In this document: one piece after another, positions 8,984 to 21,942 of the stretch
Numbering within the stretch: the first letter of the stretch is position 1
Layout: each line of letters opens with the position of its first letter
Source: a virus
Reading direction: 5' to 3' (one strand)
DNA length: 26,418 nucleotides
IMG/VR virus record: IMGVR_UViG_3300048042_000004
Coordinates: 1-26,418 of that record
Program-made: the position numbers and the translations under genes
The notes under the pieces: generated by a model
What the model saw: only the letters and a program-made list of their open reading frames with translations
Told to the model about the DNA's origin: nothing
The model's database searches: none

Positions 8984-9369
8984 CTAAGAAAAAGCAAAGT
9001 TCACTTAAAACTTTTAATGATTGGTTTGCATTAAAAATGACACAAAAGTTTGGCAGTATGGGAATGTTCTACTTATTGGTGTTTTATGGTCTGTTGCCTT
9101 GCATACGGTTTTTAGCACCATTTCAAAATACATTTTTATATTATTCGAACTTTGTACAACTTATCTCACTCCCTTTACTTATGGTTGGGCAGAACTTGAC
9201 GGGGCGCGTTGCTGAAAAAAGAGATCAGGAAACGCACAGACTTGTAAAGCAATCTCACGATTTGCTAATTCAAGAGCTTAAAGATATCAAGGAAACTCAA
9301 GACGAATTAGCTGAAATTATCAAAAAGGCTCTGTTTTCATGTTTGAAAGGAGTGATGCAAATTGGCTGA
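8980..9369 (+). CDS. Two-helix membrane protein with coiled-coil tail, DUF1003-like layout
   Basis: Translation probably starts at GTG 8980, overlapping the portal stop as GTGA, with AAAGGAGA at 8963-8970. The 129-residue product has two hydrophobic helices (about residues 28-46 and 56-72) separated by a short loop. A charged amphipathic tail (LKDIKETQDELAEIIKKA) follows. The pattern GSMGMFYLLVF, a second helix ending in LPLLMVGQN, then an Arg/Glu-rich segment, resembles the DUF1003 membrane family (GS-W-F ... MSQNRQ ... RDR), but the match is weak. It is tightly coupled to head genes on both sides. Function unknown. Confidence 0.6.
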   Translation: MTKKKQSSLKTFNDWFALKMTQKFGSMGMFYLLVFYGLLPCIRFLAPFQNTFLYYSNFVQLISLPLLMVGQNLTGRVAEKRDQETHRLVKQSHDLLIQELKDIKETQDELAEIIKKALFSCLKGVMQIG

Positions 9370-11131: not shown

Positions 11132-12676
11132 ATGAATGATATGGAATTATGGTCAAAAGAAACAATGGATAAGGTGACTGGCGCACTTCGCAAAGATGCA
11201 TCACAACAGGGCTATACCACGGGACTTGGCTTAACCAACATTGAGCTTGCCGAATATGCCCGCGTACTGATTCCGTCCCTTACTCCTTTCAGAAACTCAC
11301 TGCCAAGAACTCCATCAAAGGTAGGATCCCTAACCACCATGTGGCGTTCGATTTTGAGCGCAAATACAACCAACCTCAGGCCTACTCTTGCGTTGGGTTC
11401 GGCAGGTGTCACCCCAAACACGCAGGAAGCCGACTTCATGGCTTCTTATTCACTTATTAGTCAGGGTGGCCGCGTTATGCGAGATGCTAGGATGCTGGCA
11501 GAGGGCTTTGACGATTTGCAGGCACTTTCTGTTCAGAACACCCTCATTGATCTTATGAAGCAGGAAGAAATCATATTGCTTGGTGGTCAGAACTTTACTC
11601 TTGGCACTCCTGCTGCTCCAACGCTTGTTCCTACATCCTCTGGCGGGTCAATCGGCACTGTTAACGTAAGTGTTGCGGTTGCAATGAGAACCTTGCAAGG
11701 CGTACAGGATGGGCAGTCAACAGCAGCATCAACGCCACAGGTAACCGGAGCATTAACAGGCTACACTAACGGTAGTGTTACTGCAACAGCAGCATGGTTG
11801 CCCGGCGCAATGTGCTATGACTGGTATGTTGGCTTGGCTGGCGGTTCTCTGTACTATTACGGCACAACGACAATCAACAGCATTACAATAACTTCTGTTC
11901 CAACACAGGCAGCAACCGCTACAGGTGCACCTTCTGTTCCATCCGTTCCGGGCGCCAATTCTGTAAATACAACCACAGGCGTTATTACCTTTACAGCTAT
12001 TGCCACCGCCACCGCTTGTAATGTCGATAACTCAGCGGATACAAATTCCATGAACGGATTTATCGCTACTCTTATCGGCGGATTCAGCCATGTCGGTAAC
12101 GCAAACATTCTCGTTCAAAATGGCACAGGTTCTATGGCTTCTGGAGCTAGTGTAACATCTCTAAATGGTGCATCACTTATCGGTAACGGAGGCACTATTC
12201 TCCAGATTGACAATGTACTTGATTCGCTCTGGCAGGCATATAAGGTTAGCCCATCTAAAATTTATTGTAACAGCCGCACAAAACGTTCTATTTCTGACTT
12301 GATGGTGTCAAGTGGTGGTACAACTACATTAGTACCGATTCAATCACCCGACCAGCGTATAGCGGCTGTAGGCGGTGTGATTCCGACACAGTATGCTAAC
12401 AAAGCCGGTGAGGGATTCCTTGACATTGTTTCACTTCCATGGATTCCACAGGGAACAGTTATAATTGCAACCGAAAAGCTGTCATTTCCAAATAGCCGTG
12501 TCAATGCCGTTTTCGATGTTGAATGTCAAATGGACTACACAATGACTCCATATCCTGCAAATAAGCAGTATGGTACCAATGGCGGCCCTCGCTATGAGTA
12601 TGATGTAGCAGCAATAGAAACTTTCAGAAACTTCTTCTCCGGCGCACACGCCGTCATTCAAAACGTAGGTGTTTAA
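11132..12676 (+). CDS. Major capsid protein with an inserted Ig/FN3-like domain
   Basis: AAGGAGG (11115-11121) precedes ATG 11132; a second in-frame ATG lies three codons later. The 514-residue protein follows the protease-scaffold gene, as major capsid genes do. Residues 35-155 include LIPSLTPFRNSLPRTPSKVG and a long helical segment compatible with an HK97-type fold. Residues 355-514 include SLWQAYKVSPSKIYCNSRTK, GFLDIVSLPWIPQGTVIIA and YDVAAIETFRNFF. Residues about 158-300 are different: Ser/Thr/Ala/Gly-rich beta sequence with AAWLPGAMCYDWYVGLAGG, a pattern of FN3/Ig-like domains. Such inserts decorate the outer capsid surface in several phages. A hairpin terminator follows. Capsid identity rests mainly on context and size. 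Confidence 0.82.
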   Translation: MNDMELWSKETMDKVTGALRKDASQQGYTTGLGLTNIELAEYARVLIPSLTPFRNSLPRTPSKVGSLTTMWRSILSANTTNLRPTLALGSAGVTPNTQEADFMASYSLISQGGRVMRDARMLAEGFDDLQALSVQNTLIDLMKQEEIILLGGQNFTLGTPAAPTLVPTSSGGSIGTVNVSVAVAMRTLQGVQDGQSTAASTPQVTGALTGYTNGSVTATAAWLPGAMCYDWYVGLAGGSLYYYGTTTINSITITSVPTQAATATGAPSVPSVPGANSVNTTTGVITFTAIATATACNVDNSADTNSMNGFIATLIGGFSHVGNANILVQNGTGSMASGASVTSLNGASLIGNGGTILQIDNVLDSLWQAYKVSPSKIYCNSRTKRSISDLMVSSGGTTTLVPIQSPDQRIAAVGGVIPTQYANKAGEGFLDIVSLPWIPQGTVIIATEKLSFPNSRVNAVFDVECQMDYTMTPYPANKQYGTNGGPRYEYDVAAIETFRNFFSGAHAVIQNVGV

Positions 12677-12684
12677 TAAAAATA

Positions 12685-12708
12685 GGGCGGCTTAAAAACC
12701 GCCCCTTT
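12685..12708 (+). terminator. Terminator after the capsid gene
   Basis: GGGCGG (12685-12690) pairs with CCGCCC (12699-12704) around an 8-nt A-rich loop, followed by CTTTA. The T-run is short, so it may be a partial terminator or an mRNA 3'-end stabiliser that raises capsid expression over downstream genes. Confidence 0.7.
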
Positions 12709-14672: not shown

Positions 14673-14891
14673 ATGAAATATAAATTTATAGGAGCAGAAC
14701 CGGAGTTTTTCCCGGCACTCGGTAAAGAACTTCAACCGGGTGAAACTTTTGAAAGTGATTTAACAATCGTCAACCGAAATGTTGATAAAATTACCGAAGT
14801 TGGAGCAACGCCGCCGCCCGCACAACCAATAGAACAATCACAGGAAGTAGAAACTCCAACAGAATTGCAAGGAGTGATGAGTAATGTCTAA
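14673..14891 (+). CDS. Small tail-region protein (72 aa)
   Basis: AAAGGAGGG (14661-14669) sits 3-4 nt before the first ATG. The product starts MKYKFIGAEPEFFPALGKEL and has a compact first half and a proline/glutamate-rich tail (PPPAQPIEQSQEVETPTE). Its last codons carry the ribosome binding site of the tail tube gene, with which it overlaps by 8 bases. The N-terminal half is similar in style to the small protein at 12726. Function unknown. Confidence 0.65.
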   Translation: MKYKFIGAEPEFFPALGKELQPGETFESDLTIVNRNVDKITEVGATPPPAQPIEQSQEVETPTELQGVMSNV

Positions 14892-15813
14892 TTATTTTTC
14901 CAGTGACTTACAATGGCTTGGTGCTGGTAAAGAAACCTCATGGGGAGCAGCTGCATCAAGCACATATTTTATACCTTTTAAGGACTGTAAACCTGTCGAC
15001 AAACCCGAAGTTGTAAAAGATGAGGGCACTCGTGGTGTTATGGCTGGCACATTTGGAGCTTATCAGTCCATTCGCACATCAACGTTTGATTGCGGTGGCG
15101 AAGTTTTTCCTGATAGTATAGGGCTGTTTTTGCTTGGCATGTTTGGCTCTGATACAGTTACGGGTACAACAGTCAAAACCCATACGTTTGGTCTTGCACA
15201 GACGGCACAGCCACCGTCACTCACACTAAATTATTTTAATGGAAATAACGAAAGAGCATTCACAGGGCAGAAGCTCGAAGAATTGACTTTCAAATGGGCA
15301 ATAAAGTCTGCGCTCGAATGGTCGGCAAAGTCTACTGGCAAAATTTCAACTGTTGTTGGCTCTACTGAAACAGTGTCGCTTGCAACTACGGCTCCGATTA
15401 TGTCGTGGGCATTTGCTTTGCAGCTTGCAACTGTGGCAAATCTAAACCTCGAAAGCTTTGAAATAAGTCTAAAGCGTAAAAGCGATGCAATTCATGCCGC
15501 GAACAATAGTCAAGACCCTGCTTTTATCAATGTTCAAGGCATGACAGCAACAGGCAAAATGTCTTTTGCATATACCGGAGACCCCGAACTCCTGCTTGCC
15601 TTAAATAACACACAAGAAGCAATTACTTTTGTTGGCACTCAGGCAGGTACGAGCTACGGAATTACATTCCAGCTTTCAAAGGCTTATTTTAGCGAGCCGT
15701 CAGTAAGCGGTAAAGACCACATGATGGTTGACATGTCTTTTGAGGGCTTGTTTAATGCAACTGATGCAGGTCCTTGCACAATCAGCCTTATCAATGCAGT
15801 AACAAGTTATTAA
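14884..15813 (+). CDS. Major tail tube protein
   Basis: AAGGAG (14869-14874) precedes ATG 14884. The 309-residue beta-rich protein begins WLGAGKETSWGAAASSTYFI and continues with KPEVVKDEGTRG, the typical opening of phage tail-tube proteins (G-ET-G ... Y-P). The middle and end include ERAFTGQKLEELTFKW, NLNLESFEISLKRK and MMVDMSFEGLFNA. Its place before the tail assembly chaperones and tape measure is diagnostic. It polymerises into the tube through which DNA passes. A strong terminator follows after about 60 bases. Confidence 0.85.
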   Translation: MSNYFSSDLQWLGAGKETSWGAAASSTYFIPFKDCKPVDKPEVVKDEGTRGVMAGTFGAYQSIRTSTFDCGGEVFPDSIGLFLLGMFGSDTVTGTTVKTHTFGLAQTAQPPSLTLNYFNGNNERAFTGQKLEELTFKWAIKSALEWSAKSTGKISTVVGSTETVSLATTAPIMSWAFALQLATVANLNLESFEISLKRKSDAIHAANNSQDPAFINVQGMTATGKMSFAYTGDPELLLALNNTQEAITFVGTQAGTSYGITFQLSKAYFSEPSVSGKDHMMVDMSFEGLFNATDAGPCTISLINAVTSY

Positions 15814-15870
15814 TGAGATAAGTGCGATTTATTACATTTTGTTCGTACATATAGATAAACGAAGTATTTT

Positions 15871-15907
15871 AGAGGTTTTAGTCGTAAAAAGCTAAAGCCT
15901 CTTTTTT
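15871..15907 (+). terminator. Strong rho-independent terminator after the tail tube
   Basis: AGAGGTTTTAG (15871-15881) pairs with CTAAAGCCTCT (15892-15902), one T-G wobble in 11 pairs, followed by a run of Ts to 15907. It splits the tail operon, so genes from 16032 need read-through or their own promoter. The rest of 15814-16031 shows no gene. Confidence 0.9.
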
Positions 15908-16031
15908 GTAACGCATATTCCAAAGCTTATTAAGTTTAAGGAGTGTGCGTAAAAGTTCGCAGACCTCCGATAGAGTATATCCAAAAATGGTGACACCCTT
16001 TACATTATAAAACATAAAGGAGAATAAATTT

Positions 16032-16718
16032 ATGTTAATGGAAACAACCAACTTAACCCCTATTGAGGTATTACTTAAAGTTGACAAGGATGGATTTACG
16101 AGTTCAAAAAATCTTTATGACTTTCTCAAACTAGACAAAGGCAATTACTCAAGATGGTGCAAGTCTAATATAGAAGAAAATACTTTTGCTGAAAAAAACA
16201 TTGACTATTTTTCGTTCCTCATAAAGGAAGAACGAAATCCGAACCCGACTACCGAATACAAACTTACACCATCATTCGCTAAAAAGCTTGCCATGCTTTC
16301 AAAAACAGAGTATGGAGAACAGGCACGGTGTTATTTTATAGCTTGTGAAGAGGGCTTGAAAAAGCTTGCCTTCGAACATCAGAAGTGGGAAATTGAACGA
16401 GCTAAGGGCGTTGTTATTCGGCATATTTTAACTGACACTATCAAAATTAAAATTGCTGATAGCCCACATAAACGCTTTGCCTATCCCAATTACACCAAAC
16501 TTATTTATAAAACTCTCTTTAATAAAACAATGGATGAACTTAAAAATGAATTTGGTGTTAAGGAAAAAGAAAGTGTACGCGAACATATGACTGCCGAGCA
16601 ACTTCAAGAAGTTGAAAGTATGGAAATGCTTATCAGCAGTCTTATCAATATCGGCATGAGCTACGATGAAATCAAAGAATTTATAATTTTAAAATGCACG
16701 TTAAGATTGACGGCATAA
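16032..16718 (+). CDS. AntA-type phage antirepressor with ORF6C-like C-terminus
   Basis: AAAGGAGA (16016-16023) precedes ATG 16032. Residues about 20-110 match the AntA/AntB antirepressor domain: TSSKNLYDFLKLDKGNYSRW, then FAEKNIDYF, TEYKLTPSFAKKLAMLSKTE and GEQARCYFIACEE. Residues 145-218 (RFAYPNYTKLIYKTLF, VREHMTAEQLQEVESMEMLI, IGMSYDEIKEFI) resemble the C-terminal domains joined to such regulators (ORF6C-like). Antirepressors counteract the phage repressor to favour lytic growth. Finding one between tail tube and tail chaperones, just after a strong terminator, is unusual and marks it as an inserted cargo gene (moron). Confidence 0.82.
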   Translation: MLMETTNLTPIEVLLKVDKDGFTSSKNLYDFLKLDKGNYSRWCKSNIEENTFAEKNIDYFSFLIKEERNPNPTTEYKLTPSFAKKLAMLSKTEYGEQARCYFIACEEGLKKLAFEHQKWEIERAKGVVIRHILTDTIKIKIADSPHKRFAYPNYTKLIYKTLFNKTMDELKNEFGVKEKESVREHMTAEQLQEVESMEMLISSLINIGMSYDEIKEFIILKCTLRLTA

Positions 16719-16737
16719 TATAGGAGGAAAATAGATT

Positions 16738-17106
16738 ATGGGATATAACATAAAGTACAAAGCACCAACTATTAAAAAAGAATTCCCCGAAATTGGGGAT
16801 AATGAGGGAACACCGTTTTTTGTGGAATTTAAAAATCCACATTTGCTCCCATATGGTGAAAAGGTGAAGACGCAAACAGCGGCGGGGATTACTTCTGGTG
16901 CAACTCCTGACGAACGAATTAATCAAATGGGAAGTTACGCACAGAGCTTAATCACAAGTTGGAATTTGCTTGACAAGGAAACGGAAGAAGCGGTTGACTT
17001 CAATGATTCTGATGCTTTACAAAAAGTACCGTCTGAAATTGTTGAAACAATTATTTCTGAAATGCTACCATTGAAAGCTAAGCAGGAAAAAATAAAAAAC
17101 TCCTAA
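16738..17106 (+). CDS. Tail assembly chaperone, short form (gpG-like)
   Basis: TAGGAGG (16720-16726) precedes ATG 16738. The 122-residue acidic/helical product starts MGYNIKYKAPTIKKEFPEIG and ends KAKQEKIKNS. Position between the tail tube and the tape measure is that of the lambda gpG-type chaperone. The last codons ATA AAA AAC form a canonical A AAA AAC slippery heptamer (17094-17100), so most ribosomes stop at 17104-17106 and a minority shift into the frame ending at 17321. The chaperone keeps the tape measure soluble and recruits tube subunits. Confidence 0.8.
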   Translation: MGYNIKYKAPTIKKEFPEIGDNEGTPFFVEFKNPHLLPYGEKVKTQTAAGITSGATPDERINQMGSYAQSLITSWNLLDKETEEAVDFNDSDALQKVPSEIVETIISEMLPLKAKQEKIKNS

Positions 17107-17321
17107 ATGCGGTCAAGGATTTACAGCTTAACCGCATAAGCTCATGGAATGCCCCACAGGACGTTGATTATACGCCGTACATGGAACATCGCCTATGCAA
17201 AGAATGGGGCTGTACACCGTCACAATTACGCAAGGAACGCAACGAAGATGTGCAGCTCGCATTTCGGTTTATGGACATGGAGGGCGAAGTAGCAAATATC
17301 AAATCAAAAGAAAAACGGTAG
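16738..17321 (+). CDS. Tail assembly chaperone, frameshifted long form (gpGT-like)
   Basis: This protein is joined from 16738-17100 and 17100-17321, the C at 17100 being read twice after a -1 slip. The downstream frame has no start codon of its own and is open for 73 codons: LLNAVKDLQLNRISSWN, then DVDYTPYMEHRLCKEWGCTP, and VQLAFRFMDMEGEV, ending KSKEKR. The fusion is 194 residues. The extension resembles the T part of gpGT-type chaperones, which contacts the tail tube while the G part binds the tape measure. Slippery site, spacer and hairpin all fit the known mechanism. Confidence 0.85.
17094..17142 (+). promoter_or_regulatory. Programmed -1 ribosomal frameshift site with downstream hairpin
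   Basis: The heptamer A AAA AAC at 17094-17100 is in the correct zero-frame phase. After a 6-nt spacer containing the zero-frame stop, ATGCGGT (17107-17113) pairs perfectly with ACCGCAT (17131-17137). A second perfect stem, AGCTTA (17125-17130)/TAAGCT (17137-17142), would compete with the first. Confidence 0.85.
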
Positions 17322-17334
17322 GAGATGATGCAAA

Positions 17335-17475
17335 ATGCCGGGCAGCGGTAAACGGATGAACTCTCTCGAAAAAAGAATTGCCGCCCTCGAAAAGCAACTT
17401 CAAGGGCGGCAAAGTAAGTCTACGGATGATTTGGAAAAGAAACTGGACGGAATTTTTGCTAAGTATTCAAAATAG
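17335..17475 (+). CDS. Small coiled-coil protein (46 aa)
   Basis: TAGGAGATGA precedes ATG 17335. The product MPGSGKRMNSLEKRIAALEK continues as a heptad-like helix (LEKKLDGIFAKYSK at the end). Its DNA contains a perfect 10-bp inverted repeat (17378-17387 with 17403-17412). Short helical proteins at this position can be extra chaperone components, but no family is recognised. Confidence 0.55.
   Translation: MPGSGKRMNSLEKRIAALEKQLQGRQSKSTDDLEKKLDGIFAKYSK
17378..17412. repeat. Perfect inverted repeat inside a small gene
   Basis: TTGCCGCCCT (17378-17387) and AGGGCGGCAA (17403-17412) are exact complements around a 15-nt loop, GC-rich against an AT-rich background. No T-run follows immediately. 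It may act as an mRNA structure or simply reflect Ala/Leu and Gly/Arg codons. Confidence 0.6.
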
Positions 17476-17528
17476 AACTAAGCCGTGAATGGTATCCATT
17501 CAGAAGTTGAAAGTGAGATGAAAGAGAA

Positions 17529-17693
17529 GTGAACGAGTCAAAAAATAGCGTACTTCCTCTGATAAAAGAAGTATGCGAAGAAAGCGATTTACAGTTAATA
17601 CAGGAACTTGTAAATAGCCACGTTTGGATTGTATTTATGATTTACAATCCAGTGCCAGAGAAAACGGTATTTTGCCTCGGCAGAGTTATTTGA
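17529..17693 (+). CDS. Possible small protein (54 aa), GTG start
   Basis: A GTG at 17529 after AAAGAGA opens a frame starting MNESKNSVLPLIKEVCEESD and ending PEKTVFCLGRVI. An in-frame stop at 17514-17516 limits how far upstream it could start. The ribosome binding site is only moderate. Its 3' end overlaps by 8 bases the end of a gene on the opposite strand whose C-terminal style is similar (W followed by hydrophobics, then a final LG/IGK). It could be a true small gene or a worn remnant of one. Confidence 0.4.
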   Translation: MNESKNSVLPLIKEVCEESDLQLIQELVNSHVWIVFMIYNPVPEKTVFCLGRVI

Positions 17694-17865
17694 GCTTTCC
17701 AATAATGTACTTTGGCTCACTACCAATTAAATCGTTGTCCATTTGGTAGTAATGAATGTACGTATTCAAGAGAATCCAACCATTGTTGATTTTTTCATTC
17801 ACTTTTGATAAATCGTACTCCTCTTTAATTTCTGCAACATTAAATATCGGGTTAGTTTCCATCAT
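17686..17865 (-). CDS. Small reverse-strand accessory protein (59 aa)
   Basis: Read on the minus strand, ATG at 17865-17863 (with a second ATG immediately after) follows GGAAAGGAGG at ideal spacing. The product starts MMETNPIFNVAEIKEEYDLS and continues KVNEKINNGWILLNTYIHYY, ending PKYIIGKLK. The pattern of a small alpha/beta protein with a GW-hydrophobic core is common in tiny phage or host accessory proteins. It has its own sigma-A-like promoter at 17886-17914. It runs against the tail operon and converges with the frame at 17529. Function unknown. Confidence 0.7.
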   Translation of the reverse strand: MMETNPIFNVAEIKEEYDLSKVNEKINNGWILLNTYIHYYQMDNDLIGSEPKYIIGKLK

Positions 17866-17885
17866 CTATCCCTCCTTTCCACCTA

Positions 17886-17914
17886 ATTTTATTCCTAATA
17901 TCAGTAACTTTCAA
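17886..17914 (-). promoter_or_regulatory. Sigma-A-like promoter for the reverse-strand gene
   Basis: On the minus strand the sequence reads TTGAAA (17914-17909), a 17-nt spacer, then TAAAAT (17891-17886), about 20 nt before the ribosome binding site of the gene ending at 17686. Both boxes are close to consensus. Confidence 0.65.
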
Positions 17915-17922
17915 TTAAACCG

Positions 17923-17951
17923 TTGATATTCTCCATAATACGGAATATAAT
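17923..17951 (+). promoter_or_regulatory. Strong sigma-A-like promoter for the SHOCT gene
   Basis: TTGATA (17923-17928), a 17-nt spacer and a consensus TATAAT (17946-17951) lie 24 nt before ATG 17976. The promoter is back to back with the one at 17886-17914 and implies expression of the cargo gene independently of the late operon. Confidence 0.75.
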
Positions 17952-17975
17952 TAATGAAAAGAGGGGGCGTATTTA

Positions 17976-18560
17976 ATGGCAGACACAAAATCAATTTCTT
18001 ATGGGAAGATAGCATGTGATTATTGTGGTGGATTAGTAGACGAAATAGATGCAAAAAATCCTTTTACGGTGAATATAACACTTGAAGGAATTGAAGTTAC
18101 TTTTTTCTTGTCACCTTCCGTAAAACGAACTTTTAATCCATACAATCGTAGAAAAACGATTGTATTTCCTATGGACAATATTAAAGATGTTTCTTTCAAA
18201 ACTGACGAGCAAATCTCGAAAGATGTAACTTTAACTCGATTGCTTTTAACTGGTGTACTTGCATTTGGATTAAAGAAAAAATCAAAAAACGTAACCAATT
18301 ATCTTACGATTGAATATGATTTAGATGGCATTCATTCAGATTTAATTTTAAAAGGTGCTTCAATTGTAAAATTAAATTCACTGATTTTAAAAGCTCGAAG
18401 AGATTATTTGATTGAGAATCCACTCGCGCAACCAATTGAAGAATCTACAGCGTCAAACATTCCATCCCAAATTAAGCAACTTTCCGATTTAAAAAATCAA
18501 GGCATTTTGACCGAAGAAGAATTTAGCTATAAAAAAGCTGAATTGCTCGCAAAAATGTAA
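17976..18560 (+). CDS. SHOCT-domain protein with PH-like region
   Basis: GAGGGGGCG upstream and ATG 17976 give a 194-residue protein. Near the N-terminus is a CDYC motif (C14, C17). Residues 35-140 look like a bacterial PH-type beta domain (IVFPMDNIKDVSFKTDEQIS, TRLLLTGVLAFGLKKKSKN). Residues 162-194 are a clear SHOCT motif: PSQIKQLSDLKNQGILTEEE followed by KKAELLAKM. SHOCT domains are short C-terminal oligomerisation-like modules on many bacterial and prophage proteins of unknown role. With its own promoter and two terminators, this gene is a self-contained cargo unit inside the tail operon. Confidence 0.8.
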   Translation: MADTKSISYGKIACDYCGGLVDEIDAKNPFTVNITLEGIEVTFFLSPSVKRTFNPYNRRKTIVFPMDNIKDVSFKTDEQISKDVTLTRLLLTGVLAFGLKKKSKNVTNYLTIEYDLDGIHSDLILKGASIVKLNSLILKARRDYLIENPLAQPIEESTASNIPSQIKQLSDLKNQGILTEEEFSYKKAELLAKM

Positions 18561-18567
18561 TTTTTAA

Positions 18568-18600
18568 AAGCTCGTTACTGATTGTAGCGGGCTTCTTTTA
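18568..18600 (+). terminator. Terminator after the SHOCT gene
   Basis: AAGCTCGTTAC (18568-18578) pairs with GTAGCGGGCTT (18584-18594), two wobbles in 11 pairs, around a 5-nt loop, followed by CTTTTA. Confidence 0.85.
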
Positions 18601-18607
18601 TGCTCGA

Positions 18608-18631
18608 AAGCATCCGTAAGGGTGCTTTTTT
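18608..18631 (+). terminator. Second, tandem terminator
   Basis: AAGCATCC (18608-18615) pairs with GGGTGCTT (18620-18627), one wobble, around GTAA, followed by six Ts. With the preceding hairpin it tightly insulates the cargo gene from downstream tail genes. Confidence 0.85.
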
Positions 18632-18663
18632 CATGCCCATTTTTAAGAAGGGAAGTGAAATTA

Positions 18664-18822
18664 ATGAATTCTAATAAAGTGAATGCTCAGCAAGACCTCG
18701 CGATGAAAATTGCTTTGATTCTTGAGACAGAAAAATGCACGGTAAACGAATCTTATATTGTTCTTGACATTGTTAAGGAGACGATACGTGATTCAAAATT
18801 TACCGTGCGAAAAGAAAACTAG
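18664..18822 (+). CDS. Small hypothetical phage protein (52 aa)
   Basis: GAAGGGAAGTG upstream supports ATG 18664 rather than an in-frame codon at 18622 that lies inside the terminator. The product MNSNKVNAQQDLAMKIALIL continues with TVNESYIVLDIVKETIRDS and ends FTVRKEN. It looks helical and soluble. Its stop region overlaps by 4 bases the end of the reverse-strand gene at 18819. Lacking a promoter of its own that I can see, it may depend on read-through. Family not recognised. Confidence 0.6.
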   Translation: MNSNKVNAQQDLAMKIALILETEKCTVNESYIVLDIVKETIRDSKFTVRKEN

Positions 18823-19058
18823 ATTTTGCTTTCGATGTACTTTAATCCCAAATAAGATGGTCTAGGATTATAGATGCTTACGATTCCTTTTTGATAAGTA
18901 AGGCCTTTTACCAGTCCTTTGCTCAAGCACTCTTCCAACGCATCATTAAAATTGCCTTGCCCTAATGAATTTGAAATTTCGTTAATGTCTTTCTCATCCT
19001 TTACACCTTTAAGGATTGACAACATTGCAGATTCAAATTCTTCTGATGTTTTAATCAT
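18819..19058 (-). CDS. YjcQ-like small winged-helix protein (79 aa)
   Basis: On the minus strand GGGAGGGAGGTGAT sits at ideal spacing before the ATG ending at 19058. The product begins MIKTSEEFESAMLSILKGVK, continues NFNDALEECLSKGLVKGLTY and ends LGLKYIESKI. This order (helices, a recognition-like helix, GLV-G, a beta wing, then LGLKYIE) resembles YjcQ-type proteins of Bacillota prophages, which have a winged-helix fold and unknown role. A promoter-like pair lies at 19084-19112. It is transcribed against the tail operon. Confidence 0.7.
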   Translation of the reverse strand: MIKTSEEFESAMLSILKGVKDEKDINEISNSLGQGNFNDALEECLSKGLVKGLTYQKGIVSIYNPRPSYLGLKYIESKI

Positions 19059-19083
19059 TCTGTATCACCTCCCTCCCGAGAAA

Positions 19084-19112
19084 ATTATAATCCATTATTC
19101 GACATTATACAA
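19084..19112 (-). promoter_or_regulatory. Sigma-A-like promoter for the YjcQ-like gene
   Basis: On the minus strand, TTGTAT (19112-19107), a 17-nt spacer and consensus TATAAT (19089-19084) precede the gene ending at 19058 by about 25 nt. It lies immediately before the ribosome binding site of the tape measure gene on the other strand. Confidence 0.65.
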
Positions 19113-19131
19113 CTGAAAGGAGGTAATAATC

Positions 19132-21942
19132 ATAGACCCGATAAATATGGAAATCCTAATGGAAGCTACAAACGAAACGGCAGAGGCATTTGATGCTCTC
19201 AATGGCTCGCTAGGGGATATAAGTGGGCTTGTTGATGCTCTAAATGGAGCGTTCGATAGTCTTGAAACAACTGTTGATAGCTCAATGGGTGGAGCAGGAG
19301 AAGCTGTTTTGGGACTACAAACCCCAATTGATGATATAAGTGGCTCCATTGTGGGGTTACAAGCTCCTATAGTAGACATAGGAACGGCATTTGAAGCTCT
19401 TAACGCTCCAATTGATACTGTTAGTACGTCTATAGATGCAATATCAGGAGACGCAGACGCGGCAGCAACAGCCATTGACAGAATCGGAGCAGCAGGAACA
19501 GAAGCAGGAACCACAACAGCAGCAGGAATGACTGACGTAGCATCAAAGGTGGGAGGCATAGGAACATCTGCCGCAATCAGCCTCGGTGAAATAAGCGGCG
19601 CAGTTGACATTGCTAAAGCCTCTGTTAGCTCAATAAGTGAAGCAATCCCCGCTGTTGAAACTAGTTTTTCAGATTTGGCAGCAACGGCAACGGCAGCAAT
19701 GGGTGAAGTCGGTGGAGCTGCCATAAAAGCAGAGGCAGCCGTTGGTGAATCAGCCATGGGACAAGATGCAGCCATAACTGAAATATTAGCGGCATTTGAA
19801 AGAGAATCGGCAGCGGCAGAGGCAGCGGCAGCAGTACAAGCACAAGCATGTGGTGAAGCAGAACTCTATATGGATGAAGCTGCAAACGAAGAAATGCTAG
19901 TAATGGATAGAGAATCAGCAGCGGCACAAGCATTTGCCGACAAGGTAGCGGCAGCTGAAGCAGAAGCCGGAGGCGCTGCAAGAGGGGCTGGCGTTGCCGC
20001 AGGAGAAGCAGCCGGAGGCTTTGAATTATCCTTTAAGTCAATCATGGAAACACTCGCTCCTTTAGCCGTTATGTTTGGTATGTATGAGGGGGGCAAAGCA
20101 GTTTTTGAAGCTGGTGTTGAGGAAACCAATCAGTATAATTCCGCACAAGCACAACTTGTAAATCAACTTAAGAGTAGTAAAGATGCAATAGGCATGTCCG
20201 CTTCTCAACTTGATGCACTTGCTGATTCTACTTCAAAAGGTACCGCCGTTTCAGCGGCTATGAATTTAACAGCCGAATCGACTTTGCTAAACTTTAACGA
20301 AATTGGTAAAAGCTCTTTGCCAGCCGCAACACAAGCGGTTGACGATTTAGCAACTAAAATGGCTGTTGCTAAAGGGCAGGCAGTACCGTCACTTGCTCAA
20401 ATAACACAAGCTGCTAAAATGGTAGGCAAGGCAATGGAAGACCCTGCAACTGGAACTACGGCTTTTACAAGGGCGATGGTAACTTTCAGCCCTGTACAAG
20501 ACGCAGCTATCAAAGCCATGCAAAAAGCCGGAGACACAGCCGGAGCACAAAAATTACTTATGGAAGATTTGGCATCACAAACAGCGGGTGCGTCTGCGGC
20601 AGCGGCAGAAACTTTTCAAGGCAAAGTCGCCATGCTTAAAAAGCAAATGGACGATTTATCAGGTGGAATAGTAAACGGAGTAGAAACAGCACTTGAAGCA
20701 ATGGGCGTTGCTTTTGTGAATACTACAATGTTTTTAGAAAATCACAAGGCCGTGCTTGCCTTAGTTACAGGCGCTCTTGTTGGAATAGGAACAGCAATTT
20801 TTATATATATGTTACCAGCAATTGGAGCTGCAATAGTAGGGCTGGGAGGCATGGCGATAGCTGCTTGGGCTGCAATGGCACCGTTCCTTCCACTTATAGC
20901 AGCCTGTGCTTTACTTGCGTTAGGTGCATACGAACTTATAACAAATTGGGGAACAGTATGCTCGTTTTTTCAAGGCTTATGGAAAACGGTAAGTGAAGCG
21001 TTTGTGACAGCATGGGATGCAACGGTAAGCTTTTTGGCGGGTATTTGGTCAGACATTACAGGCGCGCTAGAAACGGCTTGGAATGCTGTTTCAAGCTTCT
21101 TTGTAGGACTATGGAACGGCATTGGTTCGGGAATAAAAACGGCTTGGGATACTATTAAAAGCTTTTTTGGCGGTATATGGAGTTGGATAACCTCGTTCTT
21201 TACACAGTGGGGGCCACTGATACTTGCTGTGCTAGTGCCGTTTATAGGCATACCGCTTTTAATATGGCAGCATTTTTCACAAATTAAAGATTGGCTAAGT
21301 GGGCTTTGGACTGATGTTACAAATGGAATTAAAACGTTTGTAGCAGACATTGCCGGCATTGTTCCCGAAATCGGTACAACAATCGTAAACGGATTTGACA
21401 GTGCAGTTACTTTTATTACAGATTTACCAGCGCAAATGCTCCAATGGGGCGAAGATGCAATAAACGGATTTATTAACGGCATTAAAAGCGCGGCCACTGG
21501 GCTTGCTGATGCTGTAAAAAATGTTGCAAGTACAGTTGCCTCTTATCTCCATTTTTCCGTGCCGGATATTGGGCCTCTTTCTGATGCCGATACATATGGT
21601 CCTGATATGATTAATCTTATTTCAAACGGTATTCTAAGTGGCATTCCAAACATCACTAGTGCCGCCAAACAAGCGGCTGCCGCTGTGTCCACTGCAATGC
21701 AACCTAGTAATGTTATCCCGATAACTGCGGCTTATACAGCGCAAATGACGGGCACATATGGAGCGTCTGCAATTTCGGGGCCATATGGTTCGGCTATAGC
21801 GGCAGGTAGTGGAAATGGCGCACCAGTATATAACATCACGGTCAGCGCGTCCGGTAACGTGGCACAGAGCAATCAACAACTAGCAACAACAATTAGCCAA
21901 GTCTTTATGCAAAATATAAAAACTCTTGGCAAGATCGGATAG
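19132..21942 (+). CDS. Tape measure protein
   Basis: AAAGGAGGT (19116-19124) lies only 7-8 nt before an in-frame ATA at 19132, but 22 nt before the first ATG (19147), so a non-standard ATA start is likely. The form from ATG 19147 is 931 residues. Residues 18-98 hold five 14-residue repeats (LQTPIDDISGSIVG, LQAPIVDIGTAFEA, LNAPIDTVSTSIDA and two earlier ones). Residues 100-290 are Ala-rich helical. Hydrophobic stretches lie at about 535-598 and 688-710. Trp-rich repeats occupy 600-690 (AFVTAWDATVSFLAGIW, VSSFFVGLWNGI), as in many tape measures. It sets tail length (by the usual ~1.5 A per residue, roughly 140 nm) and enters the cell envelope at infection. Confidence 0.92.
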   Translation: MDPINMEILMEATNETAEAFDALNGSLGDISGLVDALNGAFDSLETTVDSSMGGAGEAVLGLQTPIDDISGSIVGLQAPIVDIGTAFEALNAPIDTVSTSIDAISGDADAAATAIDRIGAAGTEAGTTTAAGMTDVASKVGGIGTSAAISLGEISGAVDIAKASVSSISEAIPAVETSFSDLAATATAAMGEVGGAAIKAEAAVGESAMGQDAAITEILAAFERESAAAEAAAAVQAQACGEAELYMDEAANEEMLVMDRESAAAQAFADKVAAAEAEAGGAARGAGVAAGEAAGGFELSFKSIMETLAPLAVMFGMYEGGKAVFEAGVEETNQYNSAQAQLVNQLKSSKDAIGMSASQLDALADSTSKGTAVSAAMNLTAESTLLNFNEIGKSSLPAATQAVDDLATKMAVAKGQAVPSLAQITQAAKMVGKAMEDPATGTTAFTRAMVTFSPVQDAAIKAMQKAGDTAGAQKLLMEDLASQTAGASAAAAETFQGKVAMLKKQMDDLSGGIVNGVETALEAMGVAFVNTTMFLENHKAVLALVTGALVGIGTAIFIYMLPAIGAAIVGLGGMAIAAWAAMAPFLPLIAACALLALGAYELITNWGTVCSFFQGLWKTVSEAFVTAWDATVSFLAGIWSDITGALETAWNAVSSFFVGLWNGIGSGIKTAWDTIKSFFGGIWSWITSFFTQWGPLILAVLVPFIGIPLLIWQHFSQIKDWLSGLWTDVTNGIKTFVADIAGIVPEIGTTIVNGFDSAVTFITDLPAQMLQWGEDAINGFINGIKSAATGLADAVKNVASTVASYLHFSVPDIGPLSDADTYGPDMINLISNGILSGIPNITSAAKQAAAAVSTAMQPSNVIPITAAYTAQMTGTYGASAISGPYGSAIAAGSGNGAPVYNITVSASGNVAQSNQQLATTISQVFMQNIKTLGKIG

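Follow-up and report, generated by a model that had tools for sequence, protein, structure and literature searches.

The stretch between the tail tube and tape measure protein (TMP) genes of this phage most probably represents a moron hotspot within the tail module, with cargo inserted at two junctions, a SHOCT-domain gene and two minus-strand genes predicted to be transcribed from their own signals, and an AntA-type regulator that would be expressed through read-through. Four observations point to morons in a recurrent hotspot: insertions relative to a close relative, a conserved frame of promoter and terminators around one cargo gene, recurrence of the AntA gene in a second phage (L026), and related regulators occupying the same slot elsewhere. 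The window analysed is the whole virus record, 26,418 bases in length and a fragment of the genome of a siphovirus-like phage whose host, to judge from related phages, is probably clostridial. Its nearest relative, and the only close one, is IMGVR_UViG_3300047650_000003 (L002), also a fragment record; a more distant relative, Thermoanaerobacterium phage THSA-485A, has related structural genes (tail tube 39%, distal tail protein 44%).

The slot is anchored on the left by the tail tube gene (14884-15813, plus strand; PF18906, E 2.6e-22; 94% amino acid identity in L002) and on the right by the TMP gene (19147-21942, plus strand), which is 78% (N-terminal part) and 55% identical to L002 and 28% identical to the TMP region of THSA-485A. 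The TMP frame has its first conventional start codon at 19147; the ribosome-binding site lies some 20 bases before that codon (19115-19147) and the homologous frame of L002 opens at an upstream GTG, such that the true start in the window may lie a few codons upstream of 19147 and be of an unusual kind. Between the anchors, 15814-19146 holds the AntA regulator, the tail assembly chaperones G and GT, the SHOCT protein and five small open reading frames (ORFs), three on the plus strand and two on the minus. Gene calls, family searches and the comparison with L002 thus bear out the sequence-only reading, which had placed an antirepressor, a SHOCT protein and several small genes between tube and TMP with the chaperone pair in their midst. 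Chaperone G (16738-17106, plus strand) was assigned by position and shares 95% amino acid identity with L002 and 31% with THSA-485A. Direct reading of the sequence places a slippery A AAA AAC at 17094-17100; from there a -1 frame T extension (the GT protein) continues on the same strand to 17321, with 92% identity to L002 and 41% to THSA-485A. Both G and the T extension are thus conserved in the two relatives, and the pair (16738-17321) has cargo on either side.

Over the 13.5 kb compared by blastn, L002 and the window are collinear, with 87-92% nucleotide identity upstream of and around the slot. The match breaks at the two junctions and at a short gap, of equal length in both, near 9042-9326, and it is looser (73-80%, with gaps) through the TMP and distal tail region; within the TMP, 19530-21440 is strongly unlike L002, though both ends align. 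Elsewhere in the window, the putative major capsid protein (11132-12676) is 99.2% identical to L002 and its neighbouring proteins 83-95%, an excess that suggests strong constraint or recent exchange; a strong hairpin, terminator-like on both strands, lies between the capsid gene and the next (12684-12705). Two tRNA genes (Gln-TTG and Asn-GTT, 1575-1880) stand upstream of the head genes, and 403-798 encodes a Lar-type restriction alleviation protein (PF14354, E 3e-13). Gene content differs at two junctions only. At the tube/chaperone site L002 is empty, the chaperone starting 17 nt past the tube stop codon; between chaperone and TMP it carries a different gene, in an interval of 898 bp as opposed to 1825 bp in the window. 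Relative to L002, the window therefore shows three insertions, delimited by blastn breakpoints, and one replaced gene (17965-18591). The first insertion (15818-16707) comprises a terminator, a structured leader and the AntA gene; the second (17314-17922) holds ORFs of 46, 54 and 59 amino acids (aa); and the third (18639-19114) ORFs of 52 and 79 aa. All leave the flanking tail genes untouched, and their genes are absent from between the same neighbours in L002, as expected of morons. So, too, is a base composition distinct from the flanks: most cargo has a GC content of 31-37% (AntA 34.9%, SHOCT 31.5%) against 42-46% for most flanking genes (tube 43.4%, TMP 46.1%), with the exception of the 46-aa ORF at 44.0%. 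Segment 15818-16707 could represent either insertion in the window or loss in L002; insertion is preferred because six distant actinobacterial relatives (L009, L010, L012, L017, L019 and L020) have short tube-chaperone gaps devoid of extra genes. With one close relative only, it is uncertain of any single segment whether the window gained it or L002 lost it.

Evidence for self-contained transcription is clearest for the SHOCT unit. The SHOCT-domain gene (17976-18560, plus strand; PF09851, E 1.2e-5; phrog_2700, 2.9e-11) encodes a protein whose role is taken from its family only, with the motif at its expected C-terminal position scoring 25.3 bits, just under the cut-off of 27. It aligns with Tsac_2851 of THSA-485A, which passes that cut-off; it had no match in phage records or viral contigs, and its structure was poorly predicted (mean pLDDT 41). 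Upstream on the plus strand, a sigma-70-type promoter-like pair, TTGATA-17-TATAAT (17923-17951, scoring 11 of 12), forms part of a 42-bp promoter and ribosome-binding-site block (17923-17964) that shares 90% identity with L002 9537-9578 (E 6e-10). In L002 this block precedes an unrelated gene, whose 258-aa product gave a weak tRNA_anti-like match and none in phage records. Retention ahead of different genes is far beyond chance, and it is mainly for this reason that the promoter is taken as real; among viral contigs, the core of the block occurs in the L002 record only. Downstream, tandem terminator hairpins of the unit's own (18568-18638, plus strand; 18568-18594 and approximately 18606-18630) follow the SHOCT gene, as terminator hairpins follow its L002 counterpart, and one is alignable: 18592-18638 matches L002 10384-10430 (E 0.007, collinear). 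On sequence grounds, the replaced gene sits in a frame common to both phages, preceded by the promoter block and followed by terminator hairpins, and autonomous transcription of the SHOCT unit is well supported. A terminator of the same type, 79.5% identical over 44 bp to window 18618-18661, also follows a small probable membrane protein gene in L026 (3365-3746), which is probably another cargo unit.

The claim that promoters and terminators insulate the cargo holds for the SHOCT unit and does not extend to the AntA gene (16032-16718, plus strand). Here, an intrinsic terminator (15871-15902, plus strand; a 12-bp stem followed by a T tract) stands upstream and no good sigma-70 site was found; the gene lacks the promoter of its own expected of a moron, and its autonomous transcription is not supported. 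The leader (15814-16031) folds with a z-score of -3.7 and had no match in Rfam. The protein joins an AntA N-terminus (PF08346, E 1.9e-14, 54.4 bits against a curated cut-off of 27; phrog_2657, 5.5e-31) to a C-terminal domain common to Rha regulators; its role as a putative antirepressor is taken from the family only. In L026 the gene recurs at 84% nucleotide identity, in an alignment that ends exactly at the stop codon, immediately before a Phage_portal_3 portal gene and a Mu F-like gene, within a head module unrelated to that of the window. The AntA gene is intact, and the C-terminal half of its protein is 95% conserved in L026; identity between the two genes varies along their length, from 95-100% over 16368-16547 to 67-68% over 16188-16307, a pattern suggestive of intragenic recombination.

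Of 23 scanned proteins that carry the C-terminal domain, 21 have a Rha N-terminus (PF09669), and only those of the window and L026 have AntA. These Rha-like regulators (from Blautia phage Montmirail, L033, L040 and L057, among others) differ from the window protein in their N-terminus and share the C-terminal domain at, for example, 36% identity in Montmirail and 61% in MT837588; like the AntA gene, they sit by late genes. In L033, L040 and L057 the Rha-type gene occupies the same chaperone-TMP slot, directly before a PHROG-confirmed TMP in L033 and L057 and before a TMP-like protein, so judged by its look, in L040. The L033 slot holds 3.9 kb of cargo, including, besides the Rha-type gene, a PHROG-confirmed anti-repressor and, by eye, a ribbon-helix-helix-like ORF and a Bro-like ORF. 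Elsewhere such genes precede a portal (L038) or scaffold (L041) gene, or follow an endolysin or amidase. In a human gut phage fragment (L027, 353-2949), four consecutive ORFs lie just ahead of tail genes; they encode a ribbon-helix-helix-like product, an AntA protein, an HNH-like product and a Rha regulator. A terminator-like hairpin lies upstream in 10 of 15 leaders of these regulators, and most share an A-rich leader with a ribosome-binding site, around AAAATAAAAC..AGAAAGGATGATTTTATGTTA, suggesting that the regulator cassette carries its own 5' terminator along, which would explain the presence of a terminator inside the tail operon of the window. The recurrent hairpin, the conserved leader and the location of relatives in late regions, often after endolysin, could also be expected of a late-operon gene proper, in which a terminator and AntA/Rha cassette controls the timing of late or lysis functions and lies among tail genes here by chance. 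This is possible but doubtful: the AntA gene is absent from the records of L002, THSA-485A, L008 and L024 (all but THSA-485A being fragments), and positions vary widely between phages, from portal and scaffold to TMP and endolysin.

The small ORFs constitute weaker evidence than the other genes of the slot. On the plus strand they encode proteins of 46 (17335-17475), 54 (17529-17693) and 52 aa (18664-18822); on the minus strand, proteins of 59 (17686-17865) and 79 aa (18819-19058). The 59-aa ORF has a minus-strand promoter-like pair at 17914-17886 (10 of 12), and that upstream of the 79-aa ORF, before 19058 (TTGTAT-17-TATAAT), is weaker at 9 of 12. A minus-strand terminator with a 15-bp stem (17412-17378) is placed to stop transcripts from that strand before the chaperone genes. 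Across 10 kb, promoter-like sites were no more frequent than in shuffled sequence (19 against 23.3), nor were terminator-like sites above shuffles (12 against 9.5); a divergent promoter pair scoring 10 of 12 or better within 17866-17975 was, however, unusual, arising in 0.2% of shuffles. Transcription of the minus-strand genes from signals of their own is thus plausible, with promoters weaker than that of the SHOCT unit. A search of 50,697 phage records yielded nothing for the 59-aa and 79-aa proteins, and the other small ORFs had no convincing family match, NCBIfam included. A low-confidence model of the 79-aa protein (mean pLDDT 56), comprising three helices and a beta hairpin, gave no result in a fold search; a YjcQ-like winged helix is a guess. 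A likeness between the 54-aa and 59-aa ORFs, noted by eye, was discarded as no alignment was found between them. Several of these ORFs lack homologs and may be non-genes, and the 54-aa and 59-aa ORFs overlap tail to tail, features also to be expected if the cargo were the degraded, mostly non-coding remnants of an older insertion. Such decay is improbable for the slot as a whole, given the intact AntA gene with its conserved C-terminal half in L026, and the intact promoter, frame and terminators of the SHOCT unit.

Cargo of other kinds merits consideration. Helper-embedded satellites insert into late genes and encode Bro-N network proteins that swap domains (PMC10111431), and the exchange of AntA and Rha N-termini on one C-terminal domain resembles such swapping. 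That the slot houses a satellite of this sort, with Bro-N-type regulators as in helper-embedded PICIs, is nevertheless barely credible: each insertion is below 1 kb and intergenic, they are split over two junctions, and no integrase or replication gene was recognised. The candidate was dropped with no integrase among the ORFs of 15814-19146. The sequence-only reading had treated the phage as a prophage, which is not supported as written, since no integrase, repressor or other gene of integration or lysogeny was recognised in the ORFs scanned of this 26-kb fragment record; THSA-485A, the distant relative, is annotated with recombinase and repressor-like genes.

With the slot read as a moron hotspot, a tentative sequence of events can be proposed. 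New cargo would enter by recombination at short conserved intergenic elements. Promoters of their own would drive the SHOCT and minus-strand genes, outside lytic growth as well, and their own terminators would end the transcripts, such that host-directed products could be made without the tail genes. The AntA gene, with a terminator upstream and no good promoter, would be expressed mainly by read-through of late transcription, its product acting in trans on phage repressors or promoters, be they its own or those of co-resident phages. Unless transcription passes through them, terminators within the slot would be expected to hamper TMP expression, and the downstream chaperone and TMP genes would then depend on late read-through or antitermination. 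It is conceivable, if unlikely, that phages of clostridia-like bacteria reserve the chaperone-TMP junction for cargo, with promoter and terminators staying fixed as the gene between them is exchanged, preferentially for AntA/Rha regulators acting on other phages in the cell. More broadly, with a relative that has an empty site and with breakpoints placed precisely, the window illustrates clearly how phages load accessory genes into the operon they conserve most, and a regulator family is shown to recur through late regions, including the position of HK97 gp15. The replaced gene within a conserved promoter-terminator frame provides a sequence landmark by which further cargo may be located in related phages.

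Comparison with known systems places these features in context. THSA-485A carries a single cargo gene, Tsac_2851, whose product has an added DUF4428 domain; this SHOCT gene lies between tube and chaperone, with the TMP directly after the chaperone extension, whereas the SHOCT gene of the window lies between chaperone and TMP. By analogy of position and layout, with no sequence relation claimed, the textbook precedent at the chaperone-TMP junction is Escherichia phage HK97, where the gene for Gp15, a 'moron product', separates the frameshifted tail protein from the TMP. A putative terminator follows that gene, and another lies between tube and chaperone. HK97 has one small plus-strand gene there (189 bp including stop); the window has several genes, on both strands, at two junctions, one of them a regulator. 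With this precedent at the same junction, and regulators there in several contigs, the interruption of gene order is not exceptional. The minus-strand ORFs compare, again by layout and not by sequence, with tab of Pseudomonas phage JBD26, a small minus-strand moron of proven anti-phage function that has its own promoter and sits between the terminase genes of the late operon (PMC10884400). These parallels, and the exclusion role that a passage of PMC11318856 cites for HK97 gp15, favour the view, also put forward initially, that the cargo forms a prophage-expressed island for defence or superinfection exclusion. We regard this as a weak contender: neither PADLOC nor NCBIfam searches gave the cargo proteins a convincing name, no cargo gene convincingly matched a PADLOC defence family, and the only matches below 1e-3, of the AntA C-terminal domain to PDC-S22 and PDC-M59A, probably reflect a common regulatory domain. 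As a moron hotspot, the slot belongs to a kind of site already known from HK97, to which it adds some new details: as far as open papers go, these are a regulator-loaded slot in several phages and a gene replaced within a conserved frame.
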